64,000 nt of DNA from Antedon mediterranea. Taxonomy: Eukaryota > Echinodermata > Crinoidea > Comatulida > Antedonidae. The position numbers were made by a program, and so were the translations under genes. Location of the stretch: the NCBI RefSeq assembly GCF_964355755.1, contig NC_092678.1, positions 20,742,922 through 20,806,921 of the forward strand, read 5' to 3'. The notes below the pieces were generated by a model. It was given only the letters and a program-made list of their open reading frames with translations, did not search any database and was not told the DNA's origin. Shown one piece after another: positions 39,601-42,600 of the stretch. Each line of letters begins with the position of its first letter. Within the stretch, counting starts at the first letter, position 1.

Positions 39601-42600
39601 CCTTGACATGCATGTTATCTATGATGTATCTCACAATATCGCTAAAGTTGAAGAACACATATCCTTTGTTTGTTTATTAGGAAAATGTAGTCTTAAGCTC
39701 TGTCTACACTATTAAACTAGTTTTAAAAAAATGTAATTTGCTTAAATATGGTAGTGATATGCCCAAATATGGTAGTGATATGACATTATCGTGTCCATAT
39801 ATAGGCACATCACATTTTATTGGCCCATAAAGTTTGATAGCGTGGACAGAGCTTTACCCTAACTAAGATGCACAAACATTCCACTTCATACAAAGGAGGT
39901 GGAAGGATTGATTTATACCAGATATATGATATAAACTTCATATTATGTTGACTGTGCTAAGTTGTAAAATCTTCACGACATCTCACTTTCAATCGCTCTC
40001 ATTAGTCGAGAGCTGCTCATGATCAAGATCACATGTGAACGAAACATTGTTTTGGCCTTAACTAAACCGTGTGTACATGGTAGATGGTAAGCAAAAAACG
40101 TTACTAGTGCATCGTAAGGGATCCACTAGAGCATTCCCACCGCATCATCCGCTCATTCCGGTTGACTATCAGGTAAGATTATTAACTTGCAGATGTTTAT
40201 GAAAATACTATTGGAAAGGATATTGGGCAATAGGAATTTAAGCTCTACCAAAAATACGCAATCGCCGAGGATAATCAGACAATAAGAATCTAATACCAGA
40301 GAATTCAGAGCCAATCTTCCCATCATAAGACCATTCTTATATATCTTATTTACACTTAAGCACTACAGTATTGTATTAAGTATTTTTATGCTAATTTGTA
40401 ACTCATTTTTGTTGATGTAGCTAACAGGACAGCCTGTTCTGATTGGAGGCACTATGGGTACATGTAGCTATGTGTTAACAGGTACTGACAAGGGTATGGA
40501 GGAAACATTTGGAACAACATGTCATGGAGCTGTAAGTTTGTCTATCTAAAGCTCTGTCTACACTATCAAACTACTTTGACAAAATAGGGTGATACGCCCA
40601 AATTTGGTTATGTCATGCCCAAATATGGTAGGGGTTACCTCGATGTAATGGTTTATACAGCCTGTGTCACTGATGACAGAAGACATGTCATGGATGTATA
40701 GACTATACTGTACTATGCATAACATATGCATATCCTGTTCCCCAGCCAAATGCAGTTGGAATTCAGTGGCACTCTGCCCAATCAAACATTTGGAGTTACA
40801 CAGCTAAAACGATGTCACCTACAATTATAGTGTCACTCCCCATTGACCTTTACGTGCCTAGTACACATTCAAATTAAATTGACCTTTTGAGACATGACAT
40901 TGCTGTATATAGTTTACCGCAATATGTTGATACAGTGCACTGTACCGCAAAACCTTACTTGTCTAGTTCTAATCATACAAAACATTGTTTTCTATTTCAT
41001 TAAACATTTTAAAAGGATGAATTTACCCAATTTTCACGTGTGTTATTACAAGGTTTGATAGCGCCTCAGTTAATAGTGATGTGTACAATTCTCTCTTTCT
41101 AGCCCATTAAAAATAATATATGGCACATATTAAATTTCACAGACAGACTTTTGTTCTTTAGACTTCTATAATCAAACGTTCTATAGAATATCTATATAAT
41201 AACTGTTACATGGTATATCTTATATACTGAGTTGTAATCGTGAATTGCGTAATATAAGTTCTACTACAGTAGTTTCAATATAATATCAATATTACTTAAA
41301 TACATATGCAACCCTACATATGGTATTCCAGGATACCAGAAGCCACTCATTAATGGATATGGGCCAAGGCTCTTTTAGCAGTCAATTAAGTTTAGATTTT
41401 TTTTTAAACCAAAGGCTATGGTAAGAGAAACATTTTTGTGATCTCACTTCCTTAGGGGCGTGCATTATCTCGAGCCAAGTCACGACGTAATCTGGATTAC
41501 CAAACAGTTCTGGATAAACTTGCAGGCCAAGGAATATCAATCAGGGTAGCATCACCAAAATTAGTTATGGAAGAGGTAAGGTTAAAGTTCACTGGGAAGT
41601 GTATTCTTGATATCTGATTGGTTAAGTTCATATCATGTGCCGATAAGTAATACTGTAGTTCTACTGCACATATTGTATATAGAAAGTGTAGCATCACCAA
41701 AATTAGTTATGGAAGAGGTAAGGTTAAAGTTCATTGGGACTTAGAATTAGAATTATAACACTAAGTGTATTCTTATTATCTGATAGTTCATATCATGTGC
41801 CATTATGTATTAGACTAGACCATTAAGTATTAGATTAGTATTAAACTACTGCACAAACATAAAAGTGATGTTTAATGGTTCTGTTTAATGGTTATATTGA
41901 ATGGTTCTATTGAATGGTTCTGTTAATGGTTCTATTGAATGTTTCTGTTGAATGGTTCTATTGAATGGTTCTGTTTAATGGTTCTATTGAATGGTTCTAT
42001 TGAATGGTTCTATTGAATGGTTCTATCGTTCAGATTTTTATAAAAGTGTGTGTCATGCAAGGCTGATGGTTGTTGGGCGTTCAAAAACCAACCTGTGGTG
42101 AGAAACCACTAGTTGAATGGCCTAGGACATTAGGAGATTTATTGAATATTAGTTAAATGTCAAAAAAATTCTTAACGAACACCTTAGTAGGCTATTTGGT
42201 GCTGAATAGGTTTTCGACTCCAGTTCTACGACGTAGAAGAGGAGGATCCCATATGTATGTATGTATGTATGTACTTGAATGTGGAGAATATTGATTGAAG
42301 GCCTGACTGATCATTAAATAGAACAGTCAATCTTTCAACTCATGGAATATTATTCCCATTCAACTCATAAACATTCATTATTTGCATACATTTTGACATC
42401 ATAAGCAGCTTCCCACATTAGCATAACCTTCAGCAAAGGGTACATTGACATTCACAATAGCTGTAAGCTAGGATTTGATGTTTGTAATGTAGAATATTAG
42501 CGGGAAAAATGAAGGCTTAAATTTGACACTGTTAATAATGTAGTCTGTGTAATTTAATTAATTTGTCTGCAAATAGTTACTAATTTCATTATTGTTCCTT

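Follow-up and report, generated by a model that had tools for sequence, protein, structure and literature searches.

The stretch of DNA analysed here (the window) comprises 64,000 nucleotides of Antedon mediterranea and corresponds to positions 20742922-20806921 of contig C9, in a genome of 354 Mb distributed over 18 contigs. It contains a gene for the RNA ligase RTCB, also called HSPC117 or C22orf28 in human. The coding part is predicted to extend from 36689 to 43015 on the plus strand and to consist of 13 coding exons specifying 506 amino acids. The product matches the complete RtcB profile of Pfam (PF01139, 6.8e-163, residues 69-506 on profile positions 1-426 of 426), and residues 3-506 of 506 can be aligned with RtcB homologues of solved structure, the likeness to animal RTCB covering the same span. 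A family search of the whole genome returned five exon matches, all located within this gene, and no second copy was seen. The C-terminal 175 amino acids were also compared to viral contigs, where none of 13 pattern matches was a relative, and to prokaryote contigs, where 7 of 27 pattern matches were relatives, all of them bacterial, and no animal gene was found. In the gene model, 11 of the 12 introns are of the GT-AG type and one, intron 9, displays AT-AC ends.

Several additional features were observed in the 3' part of the gene. The last 33 nt of exon 12, its donor (GAAGAG/GTAAGG) and the beginning of intron 12 are duplicated inside intron 12 (41543-41597 and 41685-41739, 142 nt apart, 96% identity). 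The 5' splice site is thereby present a second time downstream, within the intron; splicing from this second donor would lengthen the transcript by 142 nt and change the reading frame. The same intron carries a minisatellite of 13 nt (AATGGTTCTATTG, about 12 copies, 41874-42026). An alternative frame, open for more than 40 codons across and after the RTCB stop codon (43012-43145), yielded no Pfam match at E 0.1 and is probably due to chance.

Intron 9 occupies positions 39659-40076 of the plus strand (418 nt, phase 0), between codons 362 and 363. It starts with ATATCCTTTG and finishes with CCTTAACTAAACCGTGTGTAC; the last bases, up to 40076, read GTGTGTAC, with the terminal AC at 40075-40076. 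The preceding exon 9 (39566-39658) ends in phase 0 with the residues VEEH, the last being His362, and exon 10 extends from 40077 to 40172. Excision of 39659-40076 restores an open frame of 506 amino acids in which His362 is joined to Met363. The spliced junction agrees with the conserved protein, since it reads as in the solved homologues 9i8v_C (the best match) and 7p3b_A: VEEHMVDGRQKTLL and VEQHVVDGKERTLL. The same spliced mRNA is obtained from five placements of the junction (shifts of -2 to +2) because CAC/AT and TAC/AT have letters in common. Inspection of the sequence indicates that, among these five, the placement given above is the only one to provide terminal dinucleotides of a known class. 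On reading, the terminal AC is not preceded by a polypyrimidine tract.

Minor-class (U12-type) introns are characterized by the 5' splice site consensus RTATCCTTT and by the branch consensus TTCCTTRAY, located roughly 10-20 nt from the 3' end. The 5' site of intron 9, ATATCCTTT at 39659-39667, agrees with the former at all nine positions, compared to three to five of nine for the other 11 introns of the gene. Near the 3' end, the branch motif matches 7 of 9 positions: the core CCTTAAC (40056-40062) is complete and GG replaces the leading TT. The branch A is placed at 40061, 15 nt ahead of the last intron base, 40060 being equally possible. The branch motif of the GT-AG intron 10 also reaches 7/9, though at only 5 nt from the intron end. 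A preliminary description of this DNA had placed the intron start at 39659 and its end, in AC, at 40076, and these coordinates proved to be exact; the distance of 15 bases that it gave between CCTTAAC and the end of the intron is confirmed when 40061 is taken as the branch A.

Neither motif is informative alone, as each occurs at chance level in the window: RTATCCTT was observed 7 times for 5.6 expected and CCTTAAC-N9..16-AC 3 times for 3.4 expected. The situation changes when the junction is fixed by the protein. Under a first-order Markov model of the window, the probability of the 5' site at a fixed junction is 4.6e-5 and that of the branch motif plus AC is 6e-5, both being rough rates obtained by sampling. 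The joint probability amounts to about 3e-9 if the two signals are independent and to about 1e-8 when the five equivalent placements are allowed for (about fivefold).

The components of the minor spliceosome were searched for in the same genome. Rfam models detected two U11 genes (88.6 and 82.9 bits), one U12 gene (125.7 bits), one U4atac gene (97.6 bits) and U6atac (136.6 bits, plus a second match of 33.7 bits for a cut-off of 33); only the best candidates were scored, and these copy numbers are consequently lower bounds. All four kinds of minor snRNA exceed their Rfam cut-offs. Two exon matches to the PDCD7 (U11-59K) family, above the family cut-off, were found as well on contig C11.

Pairing of intron 9 with these RNAs was then considered. 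When the branch region was folded against nucleotides 1-40 of U12, the minimum-energy duplex paired CCTT and ACT with the segment AGTAAGG, found at position 17 of U12, and left one A bulged. A single unpaired A in the duplex is the arrangement expected of a U12-type branch site. The TCCTTT of the 5' site is complementary to AAAGGA, present in U6atac, and, with one G-U pair, to AAAGGG, present in both U11 genes. When the longest complement to the 5' site was sought in U11 and U6atac without guidance, other matches containing G-U pairs ranked above these known segments, so that both pairings should be regarded as checks at expected places and not as independent evidence.

Taken with the junction fixed by the protein, the two motifs and the minor snRNA genes argue that intron 9 is removed by the minor spliceosome, and it is almost certainly a genuine U12-type AT-AC intron. 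The class proposed in the preliminary description is thus well supported: both splice signals, the junction seen in the protein and genes for all four kinds of minor snRNA agree with it. Splicing in the cell would be expected to proceed as follows. U11 and subsequently U6atac would pair with ATATCCTTT, while CCTTAACT would pair with U12 and leave the bulged A as the branch nucleophile. Codons His362 and Met363 would then be joined by the minor spliceosome. The GG ahead of the branch core counts against the assignment, and so does phase 0 as the less usual phase of the class; it accounts for 22% of minor introns on average (PMC10639083).

As a first alternative, the major (U2-type) spliceosome might process this AT-AC intron. 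It is known to do so for a few introns of this kind, and AT-AC ends by themselves are no proof of the minor class. Such introns would be recognized by the lack of the U12 branch and of the extended 5' site, whereas intron 9 possesses a full U12 5' site and a branch core at the right distance. The polypyrimidine tract is missing ahead of the AC, as judged by reading, and the genome encodes the minor snRNAs. Removal by the U2-type spliceosome is accordingly considered very improbable.

A second alternative is that the true intron is of the GT-AG type, with a slightly different protein product and a coincidental AT-AC pattern. This possibility was addressed by pairing all donors in 39620-39719 with all acceptors in 40000-40109 for six terminal classes. 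The frame stays open for many of these pairs, 11 of which are GT-AG (39672-40083, for example, yields 508 amino acids), and the frame alone is for this reason indecisive. The preliminary description had stated that only the excision of 39659-40076 keeps both the frame and the conserved residues; the statement does not hold for the frame taken separately, but it does hold for the two taken jointly. The conserved stretch VEEHMVDGK is altered by all 11 in-frame GT-AG pairs, through residues lost, added or replaced. Their sites are also far weaker than those of the other 11 introns of the gene: donors score at most 2.0 and acceptors at most -6.3, compared to 6.0-13.3 and 10.3-16.7, respectively, with a small matrix that was trained on those same 11 introns and therefore favours them. 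Among the other GT dinucleotides listed, the best (39733, score 4.4) lies outside of the scanned range and behind an in-frame stop at 39713. Since, in addition, the U12 signals have a joint probability of roughly 3e-9 in the model given above, a GT-AG intron at this location is hardly conceivable. The locus might finally be a pseudogene or an assembly error carrying an intron without function, as the end of exon 12 is partially duplicated in intron 12, but a 506-residue open frame conserved across residues 3-506, recognizable sites at 12 introns and a genome-wide family search that detected no further copy make this explanation just as remote.

A MITE-like element with inverted ends is inserted in intron 9 (39693-39861, plus strand, about 169 nt). 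Its arms, at 39688-39718 and 39831-39861, are 81% complementary. At least 39 further copies of 86-90% identity were found in the genome among the 40 candidates scored out of 3501. The repeat was examined as a possible origin of the U12 signals and discarded, as it contains neither of the splice signals (39659-39667 and 40056-40076); it is thus taken to be a passenger. A partial second copy of the element is located at 40545-40631, in intron 11 of RTCB.

Retention of intron 9 would have a predictable consequence for the RTCB product. In a transcript retaining intron 9, translation would reach an in-frame TAA at 39713-39715 (plus strand) after 18 codons, and the predicted protein would end with 18 foreign residues at a length of 380 amino acids, His429 being lost. 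This first in-frame stop sits in the inserted element; without the element, the stop would be reached after 12 residues. His429 probably corresponds to the histidine that is guanylylated in RtcB (His428 in human). Since translation of the retained form stops ahead of this residue, correct removal of intron 9 would be needed for full-length RTCB, and its failure would result either in the truncated protein of 380 amino acids or in decay of the transcript. In combination with the single RTCB copy seen, this truncation makes a dependence of RTCB on minor splicing plausible.

A limitation of RTCB output by the minor spliceosome, as suggested in the preliminary description, would be a reasonable and plausible expectation only if the splicing of intron 9 is slow or incomplete. 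Minor introns are often described as slow. The stronger proposal, in which the only RTCB gene seen is gated by its minor intron and the activity of the minor spliceosome determines how much RTCB is made, and thereby both tRNA-intron ligation and the splicing of XBP1 mRNA, appears unlikely. If true, it would amount to cross-control among three RNA-joining systems. Any such limiting role is generic to genes with minor introns. Genes that host minor introns indicate which processes may be impaired by failure of the minor spliceosome. The minor intron of RTCB offers a concrete path through which defects of this machinery could interfere with the ligation of tRNAs and with the unfolded protein response.

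Intron 9 of RTCB shares with the U12-type AT-AC introns of animals its terminal dinucleotides, the RTATCCTTT 5' site, the CCTTAAC branch near the 3' end and a genome containing U11, U12, U4atac and U6atac genes. It appears to be no different from them in mechanism, and is distinguished by the less usual phase 0 and by the MITE-like repeat inside. It is an ordinary member of the class, providing a further example at the sequence level and no new mechanism. In nearly all of the genomes surveyed, minor introns make up about 0.5% of introns or less; of the human ones, about 26% are AT-AC and 94% are conserved in chicken (PMC10639083). To find another host gene in an animal that has been studied less is therefore expected and not surprising. 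A literature search confined to the main text of papers found no link between RTCB (or C22orf28, HSPC117) and minor introns, and no paper was found that combined 'minor intron-containing genes' with 'tRNA ligase'. Where the text of PMC5435141 mentions RTCB and the minor spliceosome, it does so separately; U12 is absent from the main text of PMC8899846, where C22orf28 is the name of a reagent, and RTCB has no occurrence in the main text of PMC10639083.

The possibility that the wider RTCB pathway is minor-spliced was explored at the loci of the RNA 3'-phosphate cyclase family and received no support from them. The genome search returned six matches at two places on contig C6, which we presume from their reading frames to be RTCA and RCL1. 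In the orientation of the genes, one locus (9,500 bases) contains a single [AG]TATC[CT]T and the other (9,001 bases) contains five, with no RTATCCTT among these matches, and CCTTRAY occurs once per locus. Both loci were scanned by motif, a procedure that leaves room for minor introns with weaker sites.

The remaining features of the window were recorded in passing. A match to a tRNA gene is located on the plus strand at 21982-22053. Upstream of RTCB and in the opposite orientation, a minus-strand open frame of 664 codons (33081-35075) displays, on reading, many repeats resembling C2H2 zinc fingers. Two further minus-strand frames, at 45933-46436 and 47055-47267, bear a weak resemblance to TSGA13 (E 0.029 and 0.0018, respectively), below the Pfam cut-off. 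Two hairpins of the mir-29 family are found on the minus strand at 51393-51460 and 51690-51757, about 300 nt apart.
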